Source: an uncultured Acidobacteriia bacterium
GTDB taxonomy: Bacteria; Acidobacteriota; Terriglobia; Bryobacterales; Bryobacteraceae
Direction: 5' to 3'
Assembly: GCA_903923395.1 (NCBI GenBank)
Contig: CAIXXM010000037.1
Span: 1-64,000, forward strand
Length of the DNA stretch: 64,000 bases
In this document: positions 49,906 to 64,000 of the stretch, piece after piece
How the letters are laid out: the number at the start of each line of letters is the position of its first letter
Numbering within the stretch: position 1 is the first letter of the stretch
The notes under the pieces: model-generated
The model's input: only the letters and a program-made list of their open reading frames with translations
The model's database searches: none
Told to the model about the DNA's origin: nothing
Position numbers and translations under genes: made by a program

Positions 49906-50868
49906 TCAATGGCCGCGCTGAGCCTCCAAAATCCTGAATGAACCGGCTCCACCGGCGAAAAGGACACTCTCCAGTAGACGAACCAGTCGATCACGCTCGT
50001 CTTTCGTGAGCAAGGCGAGGTTTTGAAGCCTCCAGCGAACTGCGGGAAGATCGCTGGCGGTCGGAACACTCAAGAGGGCCCAGTCTGGTTCACCGCGCTC
50101 GAATGACAGGAGAAAGCGGCGATGATGATCCGGGAGTTGACCCACTATCACCGAAACCAATGTTTCTCTTGTCTCGCTCAATTCCTCCAGGGAGACCGGG
50201 AGCGTAGTCATTCCGACGAATCCCCGATCAAATTCGGCGGTCAGTGATTTCCGGCTCGGCGCAAGGATCTCTGCCATGGGCCGGTTGTGGCTGAGCAGAT
50301 AGACAATGAAAGCCGTCCTGAGATCATCGCCAATACCTTCGTTTGCAAGGAGGTCCCGCACATCAAAGAGATCGCGCGGATGCTGGCGATCCAAGGCGGC
50401 GACTATCTTCCCGGCATATAGGTCAGCAAATGAAACAACGCGCATTTCCGCGAAGCCGAACGAAGCTTCTACGGCAGGAGAGACCGTCCGAAGTTCTGGC
50501 TCAAAGACGCAGCCTCGCAGAACGGGCGTCACTTCGATCTTTACCTGAGTATTCCGTTGCCGAACCAAGACCTTTGTCGCGGTGTTATCAGGCGTGATCG
50601 TGGAGAAACTGATCGACACATCCCGCAGCCTGTCCTGGATACGGTTTGCAATACGCCGAAGGGCAGCATCGATAGCGGCGAGCGACTCGACGCGGCCCGC
50701 TATCGGCAAATAGGTGAGATCGATATCGACCGACAGGCGCGGCATGTCGCGCACAAACAGGTTGATCGCGGTTCCGCCCTTCAAAGCGAAGCAGTCTTCC
50801 ATTGCGACCAGTGGAAGGAGTTGGAGCAACAGCCTGACCTGACGCTCGTAGATTTCACTGAAGGCCAT
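49906..50868 (-). CDS. AbiEii-type nucleotidyltransferase toxin
   Basis: 320 residues, complete. Pol-beta-like nucleotidyltransferase motifs of AbiEii/AbiGii: LKGGTAINLF (Gly31-Gly32) then SVDIDLTYL (Asp48 and Asp50, metal ligands), VKIEV (Lys110, Glu112), FADLYAGKIVAALDRQHPRDLFDVRDL (Asp149, Lys154, Asp166, Asp169). AbiEii toxins cause reversible growth arrest; related MenT toxins modify the 3' CCA of tRNA. The start overlaps the antitoxin 3' end by 14 nt, consistent with antitoxin-first coupling. Confidence 0.9.
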   Translation of the reverse strand: MAFSEIYERQVRLLLQLLPLVAMEDCFALKGGTAINLFVRDMPRLSVDIDLTYLPIAGRVESLAAIDAALRRIANRIQDRLRDVSISFSTITPDNTATKVLVRQRNTQVKIEVTPVLRGCVFEPELRTVSPAVEASFGFAEMRVVSFADLYAGKIVAALDRQHPRDLFDVRDLLANEGIGDDLRTAFIVYLLSHNRPMAEILAPSRKSLTAEFDRGFVGMTTLPVSLEELSETRETLVSVIVGQLPDHHRRFLLSFERGEPDWALLSVPTASDLPAVRWRLQNLALLTKDERDRLVRLLESVLFAGGAGSFRILEAQRGH

Positions 50869-51670
50869 CGAGATCCTTGGGTACGGTTATTTGGTAGGTT
50901 TTATTCAGCATGCCGCCCCGGACAAGCAGACGCTTTCCTTTTCCGAGATCGATGGCGGTCTTGTTGATCCGTGATAGCCATGCATGCTTGTGCCGGTCGG
51001 CGAAGAAAAAGAAGAGGCGCTTCACTTTGACACTTTGGCAGTCGAGCAGAAGCTTTTCTAAACGTCGAGGGCTGAGGTTGGTAAGCCCCTCGAATAACTG
51101 ATCGACCTGATGAAAGCTCTCGTGATCGGGCAACTCGTCCAGGACTTCGAGCACGGCTCGTTCAGGCGATGAGAGAAGCATGCGCTCTCCGGTTTGCCCC
51201 CAAAGGTAGGATGTGACATCGTCGAGAGTGGAATCGGATTCGGTCGCGATGGTCCCCAGATTGACTGTATAGTTCCACAGTCGCCCGCTATTGTGATAGA
51301 CGAACTTTGCGGGGATAGGCAGCTTGTTTAGCCACGTCGGCGGGTGCTGCGGCCCATAAAGATGCACCTCGGTTTGGTGGTAGCTCAGATAGTGTCCGTA
51401 GCCCTTGAGTTCCAAGGCGGTTCGTCCGCCCACAGCCAAATCCCGCTCCAACAAGGTCTGGAGAGATATGACAACTTGCTGCCAGTTCAGTTCGGATCGC
51501 GATCTCTGATAGACCTGCCGGGTGGGCTGCACCAGCCAGCCGGAGTCCAAATACTGGCTACGCAGCGAGGTCGAATAGCCTTGCGCTGCAAGCCAAGCCG
51601 CATCGACCAGAAACCCCTCGGGCAGGATTCGGTTGAGACGGTTTAGCTTTCCGTTATTTTGCTCAGCCAT
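50855..51670 (-). CDS. AbiEi-type antitoxin
   Basis: 271 residues from ATG 51670 (the upstream TTG at 51706 is less likely). The N-terminal 90 residues have a winged-helix pattern (LNRLNRILPEGFLVDAAWLA, LVQPTRQVYQR). The C-terminal part resembles the AbiEi C-terminal antitoxin domain (SPERAVLEVLDELPDHESFHQVDQ). AbiEi proteins neutralise the toxin by a type IV mode and also repress their own promoter through inverted repeats. A 15-bp palindrome lies 39 nt upstream of this start. Confidence 0.85.
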   Translation of the reverse strand: MAEQNNGKLNRLNRILPEGFLVDAAWLAAQGYSTSLRSQYLDSGWLVQPTRQVYQRSRSELNWQQVVISLQTLLERDLAVGGRTALELKGYGHYLSYHQTEVHLYGPQHPPTWLNKLPIPAKFVYHNSGRLWNYTVNLGTIATESDSTLDDVTSYLWGQTGERMLLSSPERAVLEVLDELPDHESFHQVDQLFEGLTNLSPRRLEKLLLDCQSVKVKRLFFFFADRHKHAWLSRINKTAIDLGKGKRLLVRGGMLNKTYQITVPKDLDGLQ

Positions 51671-51708
51671 ACTGCGCAAATTAGCAGATTGCCAAACCAA
51701 AGACAAGT

Positions 51709-51723
51709 TTGAAATTATTTCAA
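51709..51723. promoter_or_regulatory. palindrome upstream of AbiEi-like antitoxin (island A)
   Basis: TTGAAAT-T-ATTTCAA, a perfect 7-bp inverted repeat about 39 bp before the antitoxin ATG, a good candidate autoregulatory operator. Confidence 0.55.
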
Positions 51724-51781
51724 TACGCTAAGTCCGACTAAGCAAGATCAATGATCGATAAACCGCTGGCTCTCCGGCGGG

Positions 51782-51821
51782 AAGCTGAACGTCGCGAGTT
51801 CGATCCTCGTCTCCCGCTCCA
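51782..51821 (+). repeat. att-like repeat, copy 2 (between the two islands)
   Basis: 40 bases identical to 49726-49765, the tRNA-Gly 3' end from the anticodon loop to CCA. It is not a full tRNA: the upstream sequence does not complete the anticodon, D or acceptor arms. Confidence 0.93.
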
Positions 51822-51851
51822 AACCCGCCCGCAGATTCCCATTGTCGCTTT

Positions 51852-52819
51852 CTATAGCCAGTCCTGTAGTTCCAGAAACCGTGCCTTGACCTCAGTCCAG
51901 AGCGGATATGGTCCGAAACACAGCATGCGGCATTGAGCCTCATATTCACTTCCGAGAATGACGTCGATGTCTGATGACGGGAATAGTGCAGCACTCACGG
52001 CAAAGCGCATTTCTGGAGGAAAGAAGTAGCCCCTGTCGAAATATTCACGGCTGATACGGTCGTAGTCAGCTTTGATTTCGCCATACTCAGAGGACTTCAG
52101 CATTTCGACAACTTCAGGCTTCGCTGCCAGTTGAAAGAGGTCATAGTAGTGTCGGGCATACGATCCGAGGGGCTGGCCGCTTCGTGGCATCAACTCGACC
52201 TTGCCGTGGATGGCAAACATCTTTTCGACAAAGGTTCGCCGGTAATGTAAGGGCGCATCATGAATGGCCCTTCATCCTCCGCCCCGAGCGACGTGTTTCG
52301 ATCTCTCAAGAACTGGCCAAGGTAGGAACTGAGTTCGACGACCGTGGTGGGCTCCCACCCGCTGGCGGTTCCGGCTTCGAGAAGAACGCGGTTTGCGACT
52401 TCACCCGGTCCACCGAAACGCTGCCGGTAAGAAAAGCGGTCATTTCGTCCAAATCCGCCAACGGTCTGGCCTTCCCCTTCAACGAACCTTAAGGCCGGGT
52501 GCTCGCTCACCGTGTCACGCAACCGCTTGAGTTGTCGGTCAATACCCCGTTTGCCGAGCGGTGGATTGTAGGTAAGAGGGTCGAGGAAGATGTCAATGTC
52601 TTCCGAAAAACGCGCAATCAGATTCCAGCCTTTGGTGAGGCTGGTGCCTCCTTTGAACATGATGCTGTTGATGGTGTTGTCGGCGTTGGCAATGGTGCGC
52701 AGCACTTCGGTGACGTAATAGTCTTTCTCGATAATGGCGGGTCGCAGACCCTGGGGGCGAAAGTGCGCAGCCGCCTGAATGATGGCCTGCTCAAAGTCTG
52801 GATGTTCGAAAAGTCTCAT
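51852..52819 (-). pseudogene. AbiEii-like nucleotidyltransferase toxin, frameshifted
   Basis: Two overlapping frames make one toxin. The N-terminal part (from ATG 52819) holds EKDYYVTEVL (Glu31), FKGGTSLTKGW (Gly57-Gly58) and RFSEDIDIFLD (Asp74, Asp76), then runs to a stop at 52190. The expected continuation (RTFVEKMFAIH...ARHYYDLFQL) lies in another frame ending at 51852. The break is near 52232-52248. The span is 968 nt, one base short of a whole number of codons, so a single-base deletion explains it. The ATG overlaps the antitoxin stop as ATGA. The catalytic half is intact, so a truncated protein may still be made. Confidence 0.8.
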
Positions 52820-53565
52820 ACTGTCACAGTGCTCTTGGCTTGCCACTTCCTTGCGTGCGCCAACCCGGAGAGCAACCCAAAATCATATTTGGAGAATGGA
52901 TTCAGCAACTCACGAAGTGACTGCAAAGCGCTGGGTTGCTTTCCAAGTTGCTCGCCGATTGCGCCCAACATGGCGCGAACGCGGGGCGGTTCGCTATCCT
53001 CTACCTTTAACAGTTGCTCAAAGCGTTCTTTTTCGCCAGCCAGGGCCAGCGTTCTTTGAACGGTTTGTTCCGGTGACAACTCACTCGTTTCCCCTCCGCT
53101 GCGGAGGAATTCAAGGAACGCGGCATCCAGCGGTGAAAGCGTATTCCACGCCTGCGGTCGCCGTGTGTGAATGATGGTGTCCTGTCCAACGAGTTTCCGG
53201 GGTAGACTCCCGGCGCTGGTTGAAACTTCATTTTGCTTGCCTGTCTGTCTACTGAAACCAAGAAGGTTGGCCGCTGCGAGACCAGACGGGAAAATCGGCT
53301 TGTGTTTCGCCGCAAGAGTCTGGATTGCTGTGGGGTTGGGTCGGCTGCTGCCAAACGCCGTCTCTCTGGTTCGGTAGTAAACCCCCTTGCTCAACCTCTC
53401 AATTGCTCCCCGACGTGTTAGGCGCGAAAGTGCCTGGGCGACAGCTTCGAAGGGCAAGTCCCGGAAGTCATCCAAACGCCACAACCGCTCGCCCCCGGTC
53501 TCGATCCTTTGACGGATGGACGCGGTGATGTGCGCAGGGGATGGCAAAGTGGATGTCTGTCCCAT
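52816..53565 (-). CDS. DUF6088 / AbiEi-family antitoxin
   Basis: 249 residues. The N-terminal winged helix (ITASIRQRIETGGERLWRLDDFRDLPFEAVAQALSRL split by turns, RRGAIERLSKGVYYR) is followed by the DUF6088-type region (FPSGLAAANLLGFSRQTG, LDAAFLEFLR). The C-terminus is LRELLNPFSKYDFGLLSGL. This family is the usual partner of AbiEii-like toxins. Its stop overlaps the toxin ATG (ATGA). An inverted repeat at 53601-53624 lies 36 nt before the start. Confidence 0.85.
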   Translation of the reverse strand: MGQTSTLPSPAHITASIRQRIETGGERLWRLDDFRDLPFEAVAQALSRLTRRGAIERLSKGVYYRTRETAFGSSRPNPTAIQTLAAKHKPIFPSGLAAANLLGFSRQTGKQNEVSTSAGSLPRKLVGQDTIIHTRRPQAWNTLSPLDAAFLEFLRSGGETSELSPEQTVQRTLALAGEKERFEQLLKVEDSEPPRVRAMLGAIGEQLGKQPSALQSLRELLNPFSKYDFGLLSGLAHARKWQAKSTVTV

Positions 53566-53750: not shown

Positions 53751-54050
53751 TTATCGGCTCGGCCCCTCAGAATCGCTGCCATGGCCCGGGGGCTGCGGTA
53801 ACGCGACTACCCACAGAGGCTGTTCGGGAGCATATTCAATCAGGTAGTTATATACGCGGATGAATCGCAACGGGCGGGATGTGAGGTCCGTTCGACGGTG
53901 GCCTTGTTGCGGAAAAGGGACAAGGGCACCGATTGCATCAAAAATTTCGGTGATTACCCGTTTGGCTGCCGCAGGGCTGTCGTCAGCTATGTACTGGCCG
54001 ATTTCGTGGAGGTCAGTGTATGCCTCCGGGTGGAGTTCATACCGCCTCAT
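53751..54050 (-). CDS. ParE/RelE-family toxin, possibly C-terminally frameshifted
   Basis: 99 residues. The ParE pattern is clear to about residue 82: LHPEAYTDLHEIGQYIA, SPAAAKRVITEIFDAI, FPQQGHRRTD, LRFIRVYNYLIEYAPE. The tail (LPQPPGHGSDSEGPSR) does not fit, whereas another frame from about 53795 reads SPRAMAAILRGRAD, like the normal ParE C-terminus, and stops at 53732. A one-base insertion is a likely cause. ParE toxins poison DNA gyrase. The ATG overlaps the antitoxin stop (ATGA). Confidence 0.8.
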   Translation of the reverse strand: MRRYELHPEAYTDLHEIGQYIADDSPAAAKRVITEIFDAIGALVPFPQQGHRRTDLTSRPLRFIRVYNYLIEYAPEQPLWVVALPQPPGHGSDSEGPSR

Positions 54051-54301
54051 GCCGTGGGGTATCGAGCTTCGATGCTGTCCATCAACTGCGCGTAAGCCAG
54101 GTCGCCGGGAATCATCTTCACTTTGCCGCCCTTGATGTCGTCATACCGCTTGTCGAGGGTAAGGCGCACCTGTGTCAACTCATCAAAATACCCGGCTACG
54201 GCATCCACAACCAGTTCTTCAGCGGAACGTCCGGTGGATTTCACCCATTGATCGACCTTGGCCTGCAGTTCGGGATCGTTAAAATGCACCGTCATGCCCA
54301 T
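54047..54301 (-). CDS. antitoxin of ParE-type toxin
   Basis: 84 residues from ATG 54301 (ATG 54295 equally possible; the ORF extends upstream without signals). The N-terminus VHFNDPELQAKVDQWVKSTGRSAEELV has the spacing of a ribbon-helix-helix DNA-binding antitoxin; the acidic/basic C-terminus would wrap the toxin. The ATGA overlap with the toxin gene supports a TA pair. It lies just outside the third tRNA-Gly repeat. Confidence 0.8.
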   Translation of the reverse strand: MGMTVHFNDPELQAKVDQWVKSTGRSAEELVVDAVAGYFDELTQVRLTLDKRYDDIKGGKVKMIPGDLAYAQLMDSIEARYPTA

Positions 54302-54374
54302 GACGATAGCTTTACGTACCGCCGGTGTCAAGAAAGCCCTTTGGTGGAAGTCTCCGCGTCAAACGGTCAACAAC

Positions 54375-55653: not shown

Positions 55654-56337
55654 TTACTGCTTTTTCTTGCGTGTATCCGGCCACCAGACACGATGGGCGG
55701 AGTCGGCGAAGCGGTTCACACAGTGCTCCACGTATTGCCTCGCGACGAGAGGGTCGCTCTCCCGGATCAGTTCGATGATGCGGCGGTGGCGCGGGAGGTC
55801 CGGCTGCCAGTGCAACGCCGTCTCCTGCGTCTCCATCATTCGCAGCAGGACGAAGCCAAACAGGGGGCGCAGCAGACGTTGCAAAGCCTCCATAAGCACC
55901 GCATTTCCCGATGCCGCAGCCAGCGCCAGATGGAAATCAAGATCGCTTTGGACCATCTCCCGCACGTCATTGCCGGGGGCAGCCGCTTCCATGCGGGCCA
56001 GGGCCAACTCCATCGGCGAGAGGTCCGCGGCGGTTTGGGCTGCCAGTTGTGCGGCCAGGCCTTCCAAGGCACCCCGGATTTGGTAGATGCAGCCGACTTG
56101 TTCGGTGGTGTATCTGGTGACGCGGGCACTCCGGCCCCCGGCCTTTTCGACAAAACCTTCGGCGATCAGCAGGTTGATCGCCTCCCGGACCGAGGCCTGT
56201 GCGACCCCGAATACCGCGGCCCAATGGCTCTCGACAACCCTTTCACCGGGCTGCAAGCGACCGGAGAAGACCGCTTCTTTCAATTGGGCGGCGAGCTGCT
56301 CTTTGACCAGGGAGCCAGCGGAGATACCACGCTGCAT
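55654..56337 (-). CDS. GntR/FCD-family transcriptional regulator
   Basis: 227 residues. N-terminal winged helix-turn-helix at about residues 5-75 (LKEAVFSGRLQPGERVVE, FGVAQASVREAINLLIAEGFV). C-terminal FCD ligand-binding domain with the metal-ligand histidines of FadR/VanR types (LDFHLALAAASGN, RHRRIIELI). FCD members commonly sense sugar acids; the adjacent fuconate dehydratase gene suggests fuconate or a related acid as effector. The ATG lies within a TAAGCGCTTA palindrome. Confidence 0.88.
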   Translation of the reverse strand: MQRGISAGSLVKEQLAAQLKEAVFSGRLQPGERVVESHWAAVFGVAQASVREAINLLIAEGFVEKAGGRSARVTRYTTEQVGCIYQIRGALEGLAAQLAAQTAADLSPMELALARMEAAAPGNDVREMVQSDLDFHLALAAASGNAVLMEALQRLLRPLFGFVLLRMMETQETALHWQPDLPRHRRIIELIRESDPLVARQYVEHCVNRFADSAHRVWWPDTRKKKQ

Positions 56338-56404: not shown

Positions 56405-57736
56405 CTACGCTGAATATTCCCGAATGCGCACCATCAAGCCGAAGAAGCCCAGACCCGCGATAAGCAATGCGGCGACCGGGGCCACCACTTCGAAACCCGC
56501 GAGGCGCTGAAAGCCCTTTTCGGCAGATTTGTCGAAGGCGGTCTGATTGATCCCGATGGTCTTGCGGATGGAGCCTTCCAGACGGTCAAAGGCCCAATTG
56601 GATTCTCCCGGCTTGGAACCGACGCACAGGGTCACAGCCTCCTTCACCTTGCCTGACTGATTCAGGTCGCGAATCCGGTGATCGATCTCCAGATAAACTT
56701 GCCAGTTCTTCAGCGTCTCCAGCGCGGCTTCGCGCTCACCTTCATAGGTGATGTTACGGAGTTCGTCCGCCAACAGCCCTTTGAAATCCAATGGCAGGGC
56801 ACGGCTCTTGGCGAGGTCAGCTGCTGTCAGCCCTTTTGGCACAGAGGCGATTTGGTTCGAGTGAGTTAGAAAATCCCGCACCCAGGCTCCGGCGTTGGGT
56901 GCGTCGAAGAGATAGCGGCTTTCCTCCGCATTGGCGTCGTAAACCGTAGCCATGGTTTTCCAGAGAGCATGTATGGAATCAAAGGCATCCTCTTTCACAT
57001 GCTTCAATTCCTGCGCCCCAGAGGAAACAGCGCTGTCGGTATAGATCCAAAAGCCTGCCGTAACTCCAGTGGCAGCCAGCAGCATGACATTCAGGAGACG
57101 CCGGGTGCGGTTACTCAGGAATGCCTGCACCCACGCCAGCACCAACAGAAGCGCTATCGCAGCGAGACGCAGCACCATCTTACTGACACCGGAAGCGGCC
57201 TTCACCTTCTCGTACGTCTTATCGAGTTCCTTTTGATTTGCCTGGTCCAGATCTCCGGCCGCGCGGAGTAACTGTCCCGACATGAGGCCCGCTGCTTCGC
57301 GATAAGCGATACGGGCAGCCTCATGATCCTGCCGGAGCAAGTCCCTGGCGCGCTGTACCTGCCGTTCATAGTTACTTAACCCGAAGATAAGCGTCTGCAG
57401 GGGGAGCCTCTCCGCGTCCCCGTAAGTAACATTTTCCGCAGCGACCACCAAAGCGTCGCCAACCTGCTTCCGGCGCAATTCGTAAGCCTTCAGCGCTTCC
57501 TTGGGATCGGTTGCACCGAGAAGCTCATTGGCCACATTGGCATCCATATCAGACAATGCCGCCCGCATCTGCTGCGCGGCGATGATACTCGGCGCAGCAT
57601 CTTTCGCGACGGTCTTCAGTGCCTGACGGTGCAGAGAGACCGCCCACAGAGCGGCTGTCATCAAAGCAACTGCCAACACTGCGATTGCGGCCACTGAAAG
57701 CCACATCAACTGCGGTGTATTGAACTTTCTCTTCAT
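56405..57736 (-). CDS. four-TM tandem helical-bundle sensor, GlnX-like
   Basis: 443 residues from ATG 57736 (overlapping the FHA gene stop as ATGA). TM1 lies at about residues 10-30, then an extracytoplasmic helical bundle resembling a four-helix MCP sensor (IIAAQQMRAALSDMDANVANELL split by turns). Two adjacent TMs follow at about 190-240, a second helical bundle (about 250-410), and a final TM near the C-terminus. This matches the layout of GlnX, the membrane partner of PknG in mycobacteria, which receives a signal from a solute-binding protein. No kinase or cytosolic output domain is present. Last gene of the PknG operon. Confidence 0.75.
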   Translation of the reverse strand: MKRKFNTPQLMWLSVAAIAVLAVALMTAALWAVSLHRQALKTVAKDAAPSIIAAQQMRAALSDMDANVANELLGATDPKEALKAYELRRKQVGDALVVAAENVTYGDAERLPLQTLIFGLSNYERQVQRARDLLRQDHEAARIAYREAAGLMSGQLLRAAGDLDQANQKELDKTYEKVKAASGVSKMVLRLAAIALLLVLAWVQAFLSNRTRRLLNVMLLAATGVTAGFWIYTDSAVSSGAQELKHVKEDAFDSIHALWKTMATVYDANAEESRYLFDAPNAGAWVRDFLTHSNQIASVPKGLTAADLAKSRALPLDFKGLLADELRNITYEGEREAALETLKNWQVYLEIDHRIRDLNQSGKVKEAVTLCVGSKPGESNWAFDRLEGSIRKTIGINQTAFDKSAEKGFQRLAGFEVVAPVAALLIAGLGFFGLMVRIREYSA

Positions 57737-58323
57737 AACTCCGCCTTGACTTGAATACGGGTCCAGTGTCCGAGAGTGAGGATATCCCCATCTTGAAGCT
57801 GAATATCTTCGAGAGGAGTTACCTCGCGACCGTTGAGTAATGTGCCGTTGGAGGAGCCGATATCCCGAAGCCATAACGTTCCATCGCTGTGAAGATCGAG
57901 GAGGGCATGGCGGTGCGACACGGCGTCATCATGTTCAAGAGCGATCTCCGGATGGACGGCGCGCTTGGCGCTGGTTCTTCCGATCAAACTGGAGCCAGGC
58001 TCTAATTCGAGTTCGAGCGCAGCAAACCCGGCGGGTGGCTCCGGACTATCTTCGTGCCGCACAGCGCCATCGACTGTGATCAGCACCTTCCAGGCCGGCA
58101 CACGCGGGGGCGCGGGCTTTGCTGCAGGGAGTTCGCCGTGCGCGCCGGTGGTGTAGTTGTAACCGCACACCTCACAAAACTCCGCACCCTCGCGCGGGGA
58201 CTCACAATCCGGGCAATTCTCAGGGCCGGCCGCCGGCAACTTATCTTCCAGCTTGAGACCACACTCGGAACAAAAGTCGGCCTCAGTAGATTCATGCCCT
58301 TTCGGGCAGATTGGCGCGCTCAT
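57733..58323 (-). CDS. zinc-ribbon FHA-domain protein
   Basis: 196 residues. Two N-terminal zinc ribbons (CPKGH..CSECG and CPDC..CEVCG), a Pro/Ala linker, then an FHA domain at about residues 110-190. The phosphothreonine-binding residues are seen in LIGRTS, SHRHALL and DIGSSNGTLLNG. In mycobacteria the PknG substrate GarA is an FHA protein; this one is the obvious counterpart, though larger. The TT pair in YNYTTGAHG just before the linker is a candidate phosphosite (inference). It starts 1 nt after the VWA gene stops. Confidence 0.88.
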   Translation of the reverse strand: MSAPICPKGHESTEADFCSECGLKLEDKLPAAGPENCPDCESPREGAEFCEVCGYNYTTGAHGELPAAKPAPPRVPAWKVLITVDGAVRHEDSPEPPAGFAALELELEPGSSLIGRTSAKRAVHPEIALEHDDAVSHRHALLDLHSDGTLWLRDIGSSNGTLLNGREVTPLEDIQLQDGDILTLGHWTRIQVKAEL

Positions 58324-58324
58324 A

Positions 58325-59605
58325 TTACGCTTTCTGAATCCGCTTGGTCTTGGTGGAGCGTGTTTCCAAAGCCATAGCGTCTTCCTTTGTTACATTCCGC
58401 TTCAGACGAACTGTGCCAGTGGCGGCATCATCAATATCCACCACGGCCCGCAATAGTTTCGCGGTAGCTTCATTGCCGGATTCGTGTGCAATGCGCACCG
58501 CCTTGCCCAGCAAAGCGGTGGCTTCATCCTCCCTGCCCTTTGACTTCGCTTCCAGTCCGGCCTGGATCGATTCGGCGAGGTCCGCCTGCCCGGTGTAATG
58601 GGCGACATGGCGTTCAATGCGGGTGGACTTTGCCTCATCGTCGGTCCAAACCGCAAGAATGCGGGCCTCGGCGATCTTCGTTTCGACACTGTTCTGGGTC
58701 ATCACCAAGGTGGCGCGGCCTGCCAGCATTTCATCCCCTACACCGCCGGGGTTTACCTCGATAGCAAAGTGATAATCGCGGGATTCATTACCGCTCCAGG
58801 CTCCAGTGGGATATTGGAGAGTTCTTGGATTCGGCGAGGATGCCATGCCAGTTAGATCGACCAGCGCGGGGCTCACCTGCTTGCAGAACAATACCTTCGC
58901 GCCCGCGGGAGTCCAAAGGCGAATGGCGATATCACTTACACTTTTCCCGACAGCACTGGCAAGAACCGCCTGAAAATCCGAGGCCATGTCAGCGGGTCTG
59001 GCGATGATATCCGTTGTGCCGAGCAGACTGTTGCCGATAGCCTTCAACTGCTGGACGTCCCAGTCCGTGCCCACACCCCGGCAATCGCATTGAAAGATAC
59101 CCTGGCAATGCGCGATGGTTGCCGCGAGCGGGCCTGCATCCGTGCGGTCATTCTGCCCGTCCGTAAGTAACAAGGCCTGACGCACCGCACCGGGCATCAT
59201 CTGAAACTGCTCAAGCGCCTTCTGCAGCCAGGTGGAGATCATGGTTGCCCCGTCGGCGCGCAGCTGCTTGACTGCCCGCACGGCTTGGGTCTTATGATCA
59301 GGGATGGCCGGGGCTGGAGGGACAATCACGGTGGAACCGGTTGCGCCCGCAATCACGAAGAAATGGACATCCGGGGGAATCAACTCAATCACCTTGAGCA
59401 TGGCATCCTTCGCAGCCTGTAACTTCTCGCCCTCCATGGAACCAGAGACGTCACAGAGAATGCCGAACATCTTTCCACCGGGCAGAAAGGATGGCGGACT
59501 CCCGACTGCTGCTCCTTCCGAGGCCACAGTTACAATGGCATGGACCTCACGGGCACCCTGCGGCAGGTATTGATTCTGAAACACTTCAGCACGAAACGTT
59601 GTCAT
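58325..59605 (-). CDS. VWA-domain protein
   Basis: 426 residues from the ATG at 59605, which overlaps the phosphatase stop as ATGA; an ATG at 59617 is also in frame. The von Willebrand A domain lies at about residues 38-220 with a complete MIDAS: DVSGSMEG, a Thr in the ADGATMISTW loop, and LLTDGQND. A beta-sandwich and a helical C-terminal region (AHYTGQADLAESIQAGLEAK) follow. It is cytosolic (no signal peptide). VWA/PP2C/kinase triads are known from TerY-P type systems; here it probably scaffolds phosphoproteins. Confidence 0.85.
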   Translation of the reverse strand: MTTFRAEVFQNQYLPQGAREVHAIVTVASEGAAVGSPPSFLPGGKMFGILCDVSGSMEGEKLQAAKDAMLKVIELIPPDVHFFVIAGATGSTVIVPPAPAIPDHKTQAVRAVKQLRADGATMISTWLQKALEQFQMMPGAVRQALLLTDGQNDRTDAGPLAATIAHCQGIFQCDCRGVGTDWDVQQLKAIGNSLLGTTDIIARPADMASDFQAVLASAVGKSVSDIAIRLWTPAGAKVLFCKQVSPALVDLTGMASSPNPRTLQYPTGAWSGNESRDYHFAIEVNPGGVGDEMLAGRATLVMTQNSVETKIAEARILAVWTDDEAKSTRIERHVAHYTGQADLAESIQAGLEAKSKGREDEATALLGKAVRIAHESGNEATAKLLRAVVDIDDAATGTVRLKRNVTKEDAMALETRSTKTKRIQKA

Positions 59606-60501
59606 TTCCTGATCCATATCGCGGCAGTGATGTTATCCACACCACCGCCGGCATTCGCAAATTCCACGAGCGTCCGGGCGGTGATCAACGCATCGCAGGG
59701 CTCGCCCGTCAGCCCTTCGAGATCACTTACCGTTTGCGCGTAGTTCCAAAGGCCATCTGTGCAAAGCAGCAGAAAGCCATCGCCGGGGTATTCGAAGCGC
59801 AACACGGAGGGCTCCAGATCTGCTGCATCACGCCCCAGCCACTTCGTTACAGCATGGGCATTTCTGGAGGCGAGTGCCGAAGCTTCATCCATCACGCCAC
59901 GAGAGACGACTTCATTCAGCCAGGAATCATCCCGCGTCAATTGTTGTGAGGTACCGGGCCCGAACCAATAAGCACGGCTGTCTCCCGCCCAGGCGATTTC
60001 TGCGGAATCCGCACCAATTCGGGCCGCGACAATGGTGGTGGATGGCGCATCCGCGTCACTGCGCGCCACCGGCAGAGCCACTACTGCGGCCAAGGCATCG
60101 GCAATGGCATCTTGCATTGACTTACCGGCTGCGATAGAGTCCGCCGCCGCATCCCCCGCGGCTTTTGAAGCGAGCATCGCATCCTGCGAACTGGAGACGC
60201 CATCGCACACAACGATGATGCCGTCGCGCATTACAAGATAGTCATCGTTCGAAGAATGCTTGCGACCGCGGTCACTTACTCCGGCCATGTTCGGTGACAA
60301 CTCGATCTCGATATGGTCCCGCTCATGAGGCACACGGCGGAAACCGCAACTGGAGCAGTAACCATCGCTATCGATTTCCTCCGCGCCCGCGTGGCACTTC
60401 GGGCAAAGCGGACCAGCAGCGTCCAGAGTCATCGGTGCGCCGCAATCTTCGCAGTAGATATCATCCTCGGGCATGTCAGCAGTGCAAGCGGGACAGAGCA
60501 T
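59602..60501 (-). CDS. zinc-ribbon PP2C-family protein phosphatase
   Basis: 299 residues. Two N-terminal zinc ribbons (CPAC..CEDCG and CPKC..CSSCG, residues 3-55), then a PP2C domain: SDRGRKHSSNDD, VCDGVSSSQD (metal Asp-Gly), AGDSRAYW, CTDGLWNY and GGVDNITAA. AAAGGAG precedes the ATG. It should reverse Ser/Thr phosphorylation set by the PknG-type kinase 18 nt upstream. The familiar mycobacterial pknG locus has no such neighbour. Confidence 0.92.
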   Translation of the reverse strand: MLCPACTADMPEDDIYCEDCGAPMTLDAAGPLCPKCHAGAEEIDSDGYCSSCGFRRVPHERDHIEIELSPNMAGVSDRGRKHSSNDDYLVMRDGIIVVCDGVSSSQDAMLASKAAGDAAADSIAAGKSMQDAIADALAAVVALPVARSDADAPSTTIVAARIGADSAEIAWAGDSRAYWFGPGTSQQLTRDDSWLNEVVSRGVMDEASALASRNAHAVTKWLGRDAADLEPSVLRFEYPGDGFLLLCTDGLWNYAQTVSDLEGLTGEPCDALITARTLVEFANAGGGVDNITAAIWIRK

Positions 60502-60519
60502 TCTGGATCTCCTTTCGAC

Positions 60520-62706
60520 TTAGAACAAAGATCCCGGGCGCACACGGTTCGCCTCGTCCACCAGTGCGATTTTGTCCGCGCCTGAGGCCAGTTTCGCCGT
60601 TTCCCGCAGGCACTTTTCCAACCCCAGACGCAGAGCTTTCTCATCGAGCGGATAGCCCAGCAGTTTCAATTGCGGTGCGGGTGGCAGCTTTTTGGCACAG
60701 ATCAGTGACAGTGCGGCGGATAAGATCTGACGCGATAGAGCGAGACGGTCCGCGGTATCCAGCAGCAACTTATCGATGACATTTCCGGCCTGCTCAAAGT
60801 CAACGGGTTGCGGAACTGCCCTGGAGTTTTCAATCAGTGCACGCGCTGCCTCCACGCGGGATTGCACATAGAGGCCTGATGTTTCCGGTACGCGGGACAG
60901 AGCTTCCAGTGCTCCAGCGCGGTTCCCCATCGCAACGCGGGTTCGTGCCAAACCGAAGAGGCTCGCTATGTAATTGGGATCCGTACGGGTCACCAAATCA
61001 TACATACGCTCTGCCGTGGGGAAAGTTCCGGCGAGTTCCGCCGCGAGCGCCAGGCCTGCTTTTGGAGCAAGTTCGCCCGGCAGGTCGAAGTACGCCTGTT
61101 CGAATTGTTCCGTGGCTTTCACAGGGTCACCCGCGGCAAGAAAGTTTCTTGCCCGGTACCAGACGACTCGCCAATCCCAGGCATCCTGCGCGGCCGCTGC
61201 GTCGAGAAGTTGGTCCGCTGCTGCGAAATCACGGTTATCCGCCAAAGCCGCCGAGAGTCGGAACTTCGCCTCAATGGATTTGGGGAACTGCTCCAGGACG
61301 GCGCGTAACGCGTCTACGCGCCTCGCCTTATCCAGAATGCCCGAAGCGTTTTGGACTGCCCGCATCGCAGTATCAGCGGCATCTATGGAAGGTACGGGCA
61401 GATGCAAGTACGAGGGTCGGGGTGGCTCGATATGACTATCATGCGCGAACGCCAGCATATCCGGGCCGAAGAGATTACTGGAGGCCGGACGGGGAATGCC
61501 GGTCTCGACGGCCGCAACTTCGCGCAGCACGCCGAGTAACTGGTCCGCCATCTCATCTGCAGTCTGAAAACGGTCATCCGGATGCTCTGCAGTCGCTTTA
61601 AGCAGCGCCCTGTAGAGCGATTCCTGCTTCGAGAAGGCTGGATCATCGGGTGCCGGCGGAAGGGTGAAGCGGTTTTCCCGGCTGAAGCCTGGAATGTCCG
61701 TGACCAGGACGGCAAGCGTACGGCCGATAGTGAATAAGTCAGAAACAACGGTTGGCCCTTGTCCGGCTTCCGGAGCAGAGTAGCCAATCGTTCCGTAGAT
61801 ATCCCCATTCGGATCATCGATGCGGCGGACACCACCCATGTCAATCAGCTTGATGTCATTGCCCTCCACCATGACGTTATCGGGCTTGAAATCGCAGTAC
61901 ACCAGGCCCGCTGCATGTAGATAGGCGAAGGCGCCCAGCACGCGGTGAATATACGCGATGGCTTCCGCCGGAGGCAGCGGTCCACGCTCCTTCCGTATCT
62001 GCTTCAGCGTGCGGCCATTGACGAACTCCATCACGATGAAGCCTTCACCGCCGTGACGAACGAAGTTATAAATGCCGACAATATTGGGATGCTTGACGGA
62101 CGCCAGGAACTTCCGTTCCGCGACTGCGACGGCGGCGCTTGCTTCATCCTCAATATTCAGCAAACCCTTCAGCACCACATAGCGCGTTAGGGTCCGGTCG
62201 AAGGCGAGATAGATCCAGCCCAGTCCGCCATAGGCCATCGGTCCACGGACCTCATACTGATCCGCAACAACGTCTCCGGCCTTGAGGGAAGGCAGGAAGG
62301 AATACTTTCTGCCGCACTTGCCGCAAAAGCCACGGTCACGGCTGAGCGCGGCATCGCAATTGGAACAAAAGCGCTTGTGCTCGGGGACTTTAGGGTCCGC
62401 CATCAACTGCTTTTCGGGATCGGTGGAGGGCAGTTCCGGCAGTTGGATCAGGCCCGCGCCCAGCACACTGCGACTGCTGCGCGAGGAGGCGCGGGTGGAT
62501 CTCCGGACACCGGAAGCCCCGGCCCTGCTGCCAGGACTGGAACCCGTGTTACTCATGCCGTGAGAACTTTCCCGAGGCCTGGTCTGTGCCGTGAAGATAC
62601 TGGAGCGGGTTACTTCAGGCTTTGCGCCGGCCAACCCGCACTCATTGCAGTAACCATCTTCAATAATCCCCTTACAGCCCTTTTTCCCGCAGACATCACC
62701 GTCCAT
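60520..62706 (-). CDS. pknG: PknG-type Ser/Thr protein kinase (zinc ribbon - kinase - TPR)
   Basis: 728 residues. A zinc ribbon at Cys6/11/20/23 and a second at Cys114/117/128/131 stand where mycobacterial PknG has a rubredoxin-like domain. Kinase about 150-400: GGLGWIYLAFD, Lys180 in VVLKGLL, GLVYCDFKPDN (Asp272), LIDMGGVRR, IYGTIGYSAPE, GPTVVSDLFTIGRTLA. TPR region about 430-690 with LPGELAPKAGLALAAELAG, and an ending VDEANRVRPGSLF. These are distinctive PknG sequences over the whole length. In Actinobacteria PknG controls glutamate/2-oxoglutarate metabolism through an FHA protein. The Ser/Arg-rich linker (about 45-85) may be autophosphorylated. Confidence 0.94.
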   Translation of the reverse strand: MDGDVCGKKGCKGIIEDGYCNECGLAGAKPEVTRSSIFTAQTRPRESSHGMSNTGSSPGSRAGASGVRRSTRASSRSSRSVLGAGLIQLPELPSTDPEKQLMADPKVPEHKRFCSNCDAALSRDRGFCGKCGRKYSFLPSLKAGDVVADQYEVRGPMAYGGLGWIYLAFDRTLTRYVVLKGLLNIEDEASAAVAVAERKFLASVKHPNIVGIYNFVRHGGEGFIVMEFVNGRTLKQIRKERGPLPPAEAIAYIHRVLGAFAYLHAAGLVYCDFKPDNVMVEGNDIKLIDMGGVRRIDDPNGDIYGTIGYSAPEAGQGPTVVSDLFTIGRTLAVLVTDIPGFSRENRFTLPPAPDDPAFSKQESLYRALLKATAEHPDDRFQTADEMADQLLGVLREVAAVETGIPRPASSNLFGPDMLAFAHDSHIEPPRPSYLHLPVPSIDAADTAMRAVQNASGILDKARRVDALRAVLEQFPKSIEAKFRLSAALADNRDFAAADQLLDAAAAQDAWDWRVVWYRARNFLAAGDPVKATEQFEQAYFDLPGELAPKAGLALAAELAGTFPTAERMYDLVTRTDPNYIASLFGLARTRVAMGNRAGALEALSRVPETSGLYVQSRVEAARALIENSRAVPQPVDFEQAGNVIDKLLLDTADRLALSRQILSAALSLICAKKLPPAPQLKLLGYPLDEKALRLGLEKCLRETAKLASGADKIALVDEANRVRPGSLF

Positions 62707-63805
62707 TGAGAACCCTTTCGTATTCGCGGACTAACTGCTCCGCGCGTGGCATTGGCGTGGGGCGCTGGTAAAGCAGAGTATCTGCTTCACTGGCCAGTTG
62801 CACTAATGCCGGATCTTCGACTGTACCCCGGGCAACTGCTTTCGCACGCAAGGCACGTAACAACCCGCGCAACTCCCGCCGGGCTTGCAGCACGGCTCCG
62901 GCGGCATGGCGCGACGCGTTCATTTGCTCCCGCAATACCTCTGCCTGCGTGTGCCAGTGCTGGAGCCCAATGAGAGCAGGCTTGCACTTGCCATCCCCGA
63001 CTTCAGCCTGCAAGACTTCGAGCCACTGTGCAAGGGCCTGGAGCGAAGGCGGCGCAGACAAAGGCACGCCGCTGGTCTTCTCTGTTGCTTCGAGAAATGC
63101 AGCCTGTGCTTCATCCGCAAGCGTATGAAGTTGGACGAGAAGAGCCGCGGCATCTGCCAACCCATCTGTAAGTTGCCGTTTTGCTGCAGCCGCCGCGCCG
63201 ATGGTCTGCCGCAAGCCTGCCAGTGGACTTTCCACTTCCGCCGCAAACACGGCTGCAGCGGACAGCGGATCAACCTCCACCATTTCCCGAAGAGCTTCCA
63301 GCTTGGCGCGGACACGTTCGATCTGGTGCGCGGCACTGGCGTCAGCAGATGAAACCAGTTCCCGCAAGGACCCAGTTTCCGTGTACGCGGCCAGAGTCTT
63401 CTGCTGTAATTGGCTCCAGGTCAGATCGAGCACTTCGACCTCTTCCTGGACTTGCCGGATGTCCGCCGCGAGATGGTCCATGGCATCCGGCGTCAAGCGG
63501 GCTTGGGCTTCGAGTAACCGCTGCGAATTCCCCAGCATGCCGCTGCCTGCCTCGATAGCCTCATCCGCAAGATCCAACTCGGCATAGATGCGGTCCAGGG
63601 CTTCGAATAACTGGCATAACTTATCTGACAGCGCATTGGCCCGGTCCAGTGTTTGGCCGCGCAACGGCGCGCGCGCCACACCGGCCAGGCGCATATAGGC
63701 CGGGAGAGCCCGAAATTCCGTAAGTGCCTGCGCGATGGAACCGGCCCGCCGCCGCATTGCGCTCGAAAGCTGTGCCAGAGATTCCGCCGTGATCATGCGA
63801 GCCAT
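62696..63805 (-). CDS. coiled-coil protein of the PknG operon
   Basis: 369 residues, almost wholly alpha-helical and rich in Ala/Leu/Glu/Gln, without membrane segments or a signal peptide; long coiled coils at about 85-215. No family recognised. The start at 63805 is preferred because GGAGG lies 10 nt upstream; the ATG at 63796 would overlap the previous stop as ATGA. Its 3' end overlaps the kinase start by 11 nt, so it is translated with the kinase and may be a structural partner. Confidence 0.75.
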   Translation of the reverse strand: MARMITAESLAQLSSAMRRRAGSIAQALTEFRALPAYMRLAGVARAPLRGQTLDRANALSDKLCQLFEALDRIYAELDLADEAIEAGSGMLGNSQRLLEAQARLTPDAMDHLAADIRQVQEEVEVLDLTWSQLQQKTLAAYTETGSLRELVSSADASAAHQIERVRAKLEALREMVEVDPLSAAAVFAAEVESPLAGLRQTIGAAAAAKRQLTDGLADAAALLVQLHTLADEAQAAFLEATEKTSGVPLSAPPSLQALAQWLEVLQAEVGDGKCKPALIGLQHWHTQAEVLREQMNASRHAAGAVLQARRELRGLLRALRAKAVARGTVEDPALVQLASEADTLLYQRPTPMPRAEQLVREYERVLNGR

Positions 63806-64000
63806 TGCAGGAATTCCTCCGGCACAAAGCCGAAGTCACTGGCCTCATTTACAGCAAGCCGGATCTGTTGTTCCAGAACCGCGGGCTGCACGGGAGGCCT
63901 GTAATCCTTGATGATCCGGACCAGCGCCGTAATCGGCGTACAGCCTGAGGTCTTAACTTCGCGGTACATCTTCGACACAAGAGACTCCGCGGCGCCAGCT
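63793..64000 (-). CDS. C-terminal tail of an unidentified protein, 5' end outside the window
   Basis: 69 residues are visible, open to the window edge, ending ASDFGFVPEEFLQWLA. The stop overlaps the coiled-coil gene by 13 nt, so it belongs to the same operon. The fragment is too short for a family call. By analogy with mycobacteria a solute-binding protein (GlnH) would fit, but nothing in the fragment proves it. Confidence 0.55.
   Translation of the reverse strand, partial: AGAAESLVSKMYREVKTSGCTPITALVRIIKDYRPPVQPAVLEQQIRLAVNEASDFGFVPEEFLQWLA

Follow-up and report, generated by a model that had tools for sequence, protein, structure and literature searches.

The described system closest to the locus considered here is the GlnH-GlnX-PknG-GarA/OdhI pathway of Mycobacterium and Corynebacterium, whose signalling model is outlined in the sections available to us of two papers (Bhattacharyya et al. 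2018, PMC6069109; PMC9769921). The common features are a PknG kinase with rubredoxin (absent in Corynebacterium), kinase and TPR domains, a membrane protein, GlnX, with two four-helix bundles and four transmembrane helices, and an FHA protein. The locus lies in a 64,000-base stretch (the window) at the start of a contig of 85,042 bases (CAIXXM010000037.1) from an uncultured Acidobacteriia bacterium. At the end of the window, a PknG gene is found among six tightly packed genes, which add a PP2C phosphatase, a VWA protein and a coiled-coil protein to the kinase, GlnX and FHA genes. Two further genes, for an AAA ATPase and PspA, precede them on the contig. With a probability of roughly 0.6, the locus is read as a self-contained, GlnH-independent PknG cassette which in Acidobacteria has a membrane-remodelling output through PspA and the AAA ATPase, and from which the canonical GlnX-GlnH-PknG operon was reduced. 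The cassette itself is well supported, and gene order is what points to the PspA output.

The kinase gene (62706-60520, minus strand) encodes 728 amino acids (aa). It had been described in the initial annotation, made from the letters alone, as a full-length kinase with PknG-specific motifs, and all four motifs (YCDFKPDN, LIDMGGV, GPTVVSDLFTIGRTLA and the C-terminal VRPGSLF) are indeed present in the translation. Three Pfam domains pass their cut-offs in the same chain: PknG_rubred (PF16919, 61.4 bits vs. a cut-off of 28.5), Pkinase (PF00069, 110.2 bits) and PknG_TPR (PF16918, 203 bits vs. 27). Residues 81-728 could be aligned to the solved PknG chain 2pzi (E 5.8e-137). From the N-terminus, the domain order is a zinc ribbon with a Ser/Thr/Arg-rich tail, rubredoxin (aa 78-141), kinase and TPR. 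Phylogeny had been named beforehand as the test that could refute the assignment to PknG in favour of a generic TPR kinase. A tree of 67 kinase domains places the protein with canonical PknG: 44 PknG or PknG-like rows are split, with a Shimodaira-Hasegawa-like approximate likelihood ratio test (SH-aLRT) support of 98, from 20 other kinases of the same genome, in which 31 kinase domains were counted, and three neighbour kinases. The N-terminal tail was compared in an alignment of 38 rows. N-terminal zinc ribbons occur in the non-canonical rows, mostly with a Ser/Thr/Arg-rich stretch, the exception being locus L091 (loci are cited by their number in the set described below). Six canonical and two solo rows have no such ribbon. 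In four of the canonical rows (L170-L173), the tail contains acidic residues together with a TQAx[FY]RPxF stretch; in this alignment, the stretch is missing from the acidobacterial PknG.

The partner genes lie on the same strand. Upstream of the kinase gene is that of an all-helical coiled-coil protein of 369 aa (63805-62696), relatives of which adjoin PknG in cyanobacteria and other bacteria. Its closest fold is EzrA (4uy3; Z 15.1, root mean square deviation (rmsd) 2.8, 183 residues aligned), a likeness of helical arrangement only. Downstream follows the phosphatase (60501-59602, 299 aa), with PP2C_2 at 31.8 bits (cut-off 24) and all of the ND, CDG, DG and DN motifs. Its N-terminal zinc ribbon scores 26.7 bits on DZR, slightly under the cut-off of 27.3, and the protein reaches 112 bits on an Stp1-type model with an equivalog cut-off of 230. 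The VWA protein (59617-58325, 430 aa) passes the cut-offs of VWA_3 and VWA_3_C and bears DVSGS and TDG motifs. In the FHA protein (58323-57733, 196 aa), the C-terminal FHA domain is above its cut-off at 58.4 bits, and the N-terminal zinc ribbon is under the DZR cut-off (22.4 vs. 27.3 bits). An alignment of 25 loci showed that a double zinc ribbon precedes the FHA domain in cassette FHA proteins. The last gene of the run encodes GlnX (57736-56405, 443 aa), its start being inferred from an ATGA overlap with the FHA gene.

These six genes thus occupy 63805-56405 of the minus strand, packed together as initially described. The coiled-coil and PknG genes overlap by 11 bases, PP2C and VWA by 16 and FHA and GlnX by 4; 18 bases separate PknG from PP2C and 1 base VWA from FHA. 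A writer (PknG), an eraser (PP2C), a reader (FHA) and a sensor (GlnX) are encoded together, in agreement with the initial annotation. Its delimitation of a complete cassette at 56405-64000 stands for the six genes and falls short at the operon start, which lies upstream of 64000. There, the AAA ATPase gene (548 aa, contig positions 65439-63793, minus strand) has only its 3' end (63793-64000) in the window and overlaps the coiled-coil gene by 13 bases. It is preceded by pspA (251 aa, contig 66203-65448, minus strand, start inferred), beyond the window. Since pspA and the AAA ATPase gene precede the six window genes, an eight-gene unit is proposed, and the tight spacing suggests a single transcript. 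The gene 5' of pspA, presumably esterase-like, is divergent.

The cassette occurs beyond this organism, in many other bacteria. One genome per species was scanned, and 80 PknG loci, the best of at least 578 relatives, were kept; with the present locus (L002) and 24 from further searches, the set comprised 105 loci. Leaving second copies (L184, L190, L192 and L193) out of the counts gave 101 loci, 98 of which have a PknG above 500 bits, the three dropped being L187-L189. Most loci were picked by likeness to the query PknG, so that the set is no census. PP2C, VWA, FHA and GlnX occur together at 64 of the 98 PknG loci, a frequency of adjacency that exceeds chance, and such full four-partner cassettes are found in cyanobacteria, actinobacteria, Acidobacteria and Burkholderiales. 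Two Bacillota loci, one of them truncated by the contig end, have VWA, FHA and GlnX without PP2C. Another 64 is the number of wide loci, with flanks of 6.5 kb or more on each side, to which L002 does not belong: all four partners are present in 48, PP2C alone is missing in two, GlnX and a solute-binding protein (SBP) are the only partners in six, GlnX in two and the coiled coil in two, and four have no partner. Clustering of open reading frames (ORFs) was dropped in favour of profile searches for the neighbourhood map, as antisense frames in GC-rich loci misled the clustering.

Four gene orders recur: GlnX-SBP-PknG; GlnX-SBP-(coiled coil)-PknG-PP2C-VWA-FHA; coiled coil-PknG-PP2C-VWA-FHA-GlnX, in most cyanobacteria and Acidobacteria; and VWA-FHA-GlnX-coiled coil-PknG, with PP2C after PknG in Burkholderiales and L191. 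Actinobacterial operons of the second order were found in Kribbella, Nocardia, Kitasatospora and Acidimicrobia, among others. Their PknG, PP2C, VWA and FHA genes are arranged as in the acidobacterial operon; unlike it, the actinobacterial cassettes keep the SBP and a tip motif in GlnX and have no PspA alongside. In Kribbella (L093, 4713-6458), an AAA+ ATPase of a different type (AAA_lid_6) is encoded directly upstream of GlnX-SBP-PknG, parallel to the acidobacterial AAA gene.

In the sections available to us, PknG orthologs are described as mostly restricted to Actinobacteria, with Ktedonobacter and Calothrix as exceptions (Lisa et al. 2021, PMC8546545), vs. a wide conservation in diverse bacteria (Bhattacharyya et al. 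2018, PMC6069109). In a rough census, 5 of 194 genomes of cyanobacteria and 14 of 198 of actinobacteria have a PknG_rubred match above the cut-off, counts in which some positives were already in the locus set and which miss rubredoxin-less kinases. Strong PknG_TPR and GlnX matches are present in two of 396 acidobacterial genomes, the present one included. PF16918 was rejected as a census tool for Acidobacteria because generic TPR proteins respond to it: a hit at E <= 0.001 was obtained in 225 of the 396 genomes, and in 92 the cut-off is exceeded. Among the matches listed, only two genomes (G000 and G202) exceed 200 bits, the next best reaching 44.4. The GlnX family model NF058618 is matched in 47 of the 396 genomes, and two pass its cut-off. 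A partial search of the open-access literature returned no description of the cassette, nor of PknG with PspA, which does not prove their absence.

The membrane protein had been proposed to resemble GlnX structurally, with tandem bundles and four transmembrane helices, and this is borne out. It scores 265.2 bits on the NCBIfam 'GlnX family' model NF058618 (cut-off 250). It stays below the equivalog for the protein kinase G-activating GlnX (NF041460, 60.4 vs. 780 bits), on which the GlnX of a canonical-type locus (L173) reaches 861.4 bits. An AlphaFold2 model built from 30 sequences (predicted local distance difference test 91.8, predicted template modelling score 0.86) has two periplasmic four-helix bundles and four transmembrane helices, the topology being read from the helix order. 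It begins with a 67-residue helix, and a later one (residues 138-211) is longer. Bundle 1 best matches LytS (5xsj; Z 17.3, rmsd 1.8, 120 residues aligned). According to its title, entry 5xsj is a complex of LytS with XylFII, which we take to be a solute-binding protein. Bundle 2 matches MCP2201 (6its; Z 15.4, rmsd 2.3, 144 residues aligned), tied with 9a65. In the part of PMC9769921 at hand, the same two proteins are the entries named for C. glutamicum GlnX, the first and longest helix of which has 67 residues.

A tree of 80 GlnX rows (76 different) divides the family in two. On one side, 47 of 47 rows are without a neighbouring SBP, and on the other 32 of 33 have one, L092 being the exception; the acidobacterial GlnX falls in the clade without. 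Of the 32 SBP-linked rows, 31 contain the motif R..[ND]R...P.G, which is absent from all 48 SBP-free ones (the second copies, all SBP-free, are counted here), and in the model it would sit at the outer end of bundle 1, between its helices 3 and 4. Another motif, N[ILV][TS][YFL], is found in 44 of 48 SBP-free vs. 7 of 32 SBP-linked rows and, by helix order, would be placed at the end of the bundles close to the membrane. L097, L100 and L104 combine an actinobacterial PknG with a GlnX of the SBP-free clade, so that a past exchange of the sensor is possible. In Nocardia stercoris (L100, 8150-13761, the same place as L184), PknG lies between two GlnX genes, both of this clade, and the genome has two more PknG_rubred copies.

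The relative age of the two forms was approached with a PknG tree of 46 rows and 701 columns, rooted on L187-L189. In these three actinobacterial genomes, a rubredoxin-bearing PknG-like kinase adjoins a VWA gene. As the outgroup kinases have this neighbour, the link between PknG and VWA may predate PknG itself. The 43 PknG rows are united vs. the outgroup (100/100). The six canonical and two solo kinases are placed beside the Nocardia cassettes (100/99). A single clade (100/100) unites the cyanobacterial and acidobacterial rows with a group from Burkholderiales, Bacillota, Armatimonadota and Verrucomicrobiota, and the acidobacterial rows are held together (97/86). An arrangement in which the other 35 PknG rows, L097 and L100 without a cassette included, are kept together, apart from the eight and the outgroup, was rejected in the approximately unbiased (AU) test (p 0.0123). 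Because the canonical operons lie inside the cassette-bearing kinases, beside Nocardia, the mycobacterial pathway looks reduced, and loss of PP2C, VWA, FHA and the coiled coil is the simplest reading of its origin. The N-terminal zinc ribbon, borne by the outgroup kinases but not by the canonical rows, was also counted for reduction. On the tree, over 40 rows (L080, L089, L090 and L187-L189 left out), GlnX requires one change, PP2C, VWA, FHA and the coiled coil four each and SBP five; these are upper bounds, as at least two contig-cut rows (L084 and L098) were scored as lacking the cut genes. In its main groups, the PknG tree is matched by quickly built trees of 39 GlnX rows and 33 VWA rows.

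As for the proposed output in Acidobacteria, the PspA protein, a member of the PspA/IM30 family in the ESCRT-III superfamily, matches PF04012 (42.7 bits, cut-off 33.9). The AAA ATPase passes the cut-off of PF00004 with 77.2 bits, and its AAA domain falls in the Cdc48/p97/AFG2 class (E 3.3e-33). The single Walker A and B motifs lie in the C-terminal half, and no solved AAA chain was matched by sequence in the N-terminal 255 aa. PspA has been reported to occur with AAA proteins having an inactive N-terminal AAA copy (Ravi et al. 2024, PMC11237479, as far as that paper was available). The acidobacterial pair resembles this PspA-AAA+ dyad in adjoining genes and in Walker motifs confined to the C-terminal half; unlike it, the pair is joined to a PknG phosphosignalling cassette, and the terms vwa, fha and pp2c do not occur in the main text of PMC11237479 as available to us. 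PspA is present in all four acidobacterial loci with intact flanks (L002, L034, L069 and L064) and is accompanied by the AAA ATPase in three. With a profile built from the PspA of L002 and 36 sequences of several phyla, the only further locus of the 105 to match was L190, the second copy of L064. The genome search for PspA covered 22 genomes, 21 with a match. The operon's PspA is the only one found in the genomes of L002 and L034; two were found in that of L064 and three in that of L069.

Beyond the operon, a presumed GntR-like regulator gene (55654-56337) on the same strand begins 67 bases 3' of glnX and is probably a separate unit. Further away, ORF pairs at 49906-53565 and 53751-54331 presumably represent AbiE-type nucleotidyltransferase/antitoxin genes and a ParE-like pair. 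Two additional Ser/Thr kinase domains are encoded on the contig (17276-18130 and 21112-21951 of the window), in frames of 1127 and 1091 aa.

The domains and gene order would fit the following working model. GlnX would sense an envelope signal directly, without GlnH, and, if the Mycobacterium/Corynebacterium model can be transferred, transmit it through the membrane to the PknG TPR domain. PknG may then autophosphorylate its Ser/Thr-rich tail and phosphorylate its cassette partners. The zinc-ribbon FHA protein is predicted to dock on phosphothreonine, the VWA and coiled-coil proteins could serve as a scaffold, and the zinc-ribbon PP2C would reset the phosphorylation state. In Acidobacteria, PspA and the Cdc48-class AAA ATPase may carry out membrane remodelling or repair. 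The cassette would be old, and the canonical operon would have shed PP2C, VWA, FHA, the coiled coil and the zinc ribbon of PknG, retained GlnH and come under a GarA-type use. A bolder account is offered as somewhat less likely than not: PknG signalling may have begun as a multi-part system of GlnX, often an SBP, coiled coil, PknG, PP2C, VWA and zinc-ribbon FHA, of which the mycobacterial pathway is a relic; GlnX may exist in a form that docks GlnH at the outer tip and one that senses the envelope by itself; and in Acidobacteria the GlnH-free form may drive a PspA/AAA membrane remodelling controlled by phosphorylation.

Several points weigh against the reading of a self-contained cassette with a PspA output from which the canonical operon was reduced. 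The root of the PknG tree depends on a distant outgroup (branch 1.54), the group used in the AU test was chosen after the tree was seen, and the quick GlnX and VWA trees each split the four acidobacterial rows (two changes each). Among the GlnX rows scored as SBP-free, 8 of 48 have less than 3 kb of flank on one side. PknG is partnerless within at least 6.5 kb on each side in L062 and L063 (Chamaesiphon), L183 and L186. The link of PspA to the cassette is one of gene order, seen in four genomes, and in L064 PspA stands at the opposite end of the cassette, with no AAA gene. In L065, a fifth acidobacterial locus, whose contig ends within FHA and which was counted neither way, there is no PspA upstream. 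Regarding the fold of GlnX, Foldseek returned no PDB match at E <= 0.001, and helical bundles reach high scores easily. The NF058618 sequence match therefore outweighs the fold matches.

The locus could also serve ordinary amino-acid sensing, in which the GlnH-like protein used by GlnX is encoded elsewhere in the genome and the role of GarA in the control of 2-oxoglutarate metabolism falls to the FHA protein. GlnX and PknG are true family members, and the actinobacterial cassettes retain an SBP between them, both of which speak for this explanation. A GlnH partner as in Mycobacterium, sought upstream of 64000, was not encountered: ORFs were read to contig position 74500, and the genome-wide search, made for the GlnH-type SBP_bac_3 family and no other solute-binding family, found no such domain on the whole contig. 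The genome contains five, all on other contigs and in open frames of 686-968 aa. Among related acidobacterial genomes, that of L034 has three matches, in favour of amino-acid sensing, vs. none in that of L069 and a marginal one (E 6.7e-4) in that of Granulicella rosea (L064). GarA and OdhI are marked by a Thr-Thr phospho-acceptor motif on the N-terminal side of the FHA domain. In the 25 cassette FHA proteins inspected by eye, no such motif was seen ahead of the domain, and in the present protein a zinc ribbon stands in its place. Its equivalence to GarA, put forward at the outset, was rejected, as it scores 23.8 bits on the OdhI model NF041660 (cut-off 200); none of the eight matches in the genome exceeds this cut-off. 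As a control, 4 of 14 genomes, C. glutamicum included, match the model, one of them over the cut-off. The absence of the tip motif from GlnX and of TQAx[FY]RPxF from the PknG tail also speaks against amino-acid sensing, which is regarded as quite improbable. The acidobacterial operon differs from the GlnH-GlnX-PknG-GarA/OdhI pathway in that no GlnH was found, its FHA protein is of the zinc-ribbon type, its GlnX belongs to the other clade, PP2C, VWA and coiled-coil genes are added and its PknG has an N-terminal zinc ribbon.

Alternatively, PspA and the AAA ATPase might only share a promoter with the cassette, being a separate membrane-repair unit while the cassette signals elsewhere. This is unlikely, with more in its favour than amino-acid sensing: the two proteins are a known pair (PMC11237479, in the part at hand), no PspA lies beside the cassette in the cyanobacterial loci examined, and the Granulicella locus has no AAA gene. 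The four acidobacterial loci nevertheless link PspA to the cassette in two positions, before the coiled-coil gene and after glnX, and two of the genomes have no other PspA found, which speaks against a separate unit. TerY-P triads are defined by a kinase, a phosphatase and a VWA protein encoded together, and a VWA-centred stress or defence system of this kind, with PknG as a recruited kinase, was considered as well. The locus resembles such triads in its kinase, PP2C and VWA genes, and the nearest outgroup kinases (L187-L189) adjoin VWA; it differs from them in that the kinase is PknG, accompanied by GlnX and FHA. The PADLOC models matched only the generic kinase domain (PD-T4-6 and others) and, weakly, PP2C and AAA, and the steadiest partner of PknG is GlnX, with one change on the tree vs. 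four for VWA. A defence system is the least probable of the alternatives and very improbable.

For the much-studied PknG, models of how the signal arrives still have few components. Should the cassette be the older form, the missing partner types can be named as a dedicated PP2C, a zinc-ribbon FHA protein, VWA and a coiled-coil scaffold, and GlnX would fall into two kinds of sensor, one docking GlnH and one free of it, with a docking motif that can be tested. The distribution of the cassette also sharpens the published views on the range of PknG (PMC8546545 vs. PMC6069109, in the parts at hand). The link to PspA and the AAA ATPase, if true, would give a bacterial Hanks-type kinase a means of controlling membrane repair of the ESCRT-III type.

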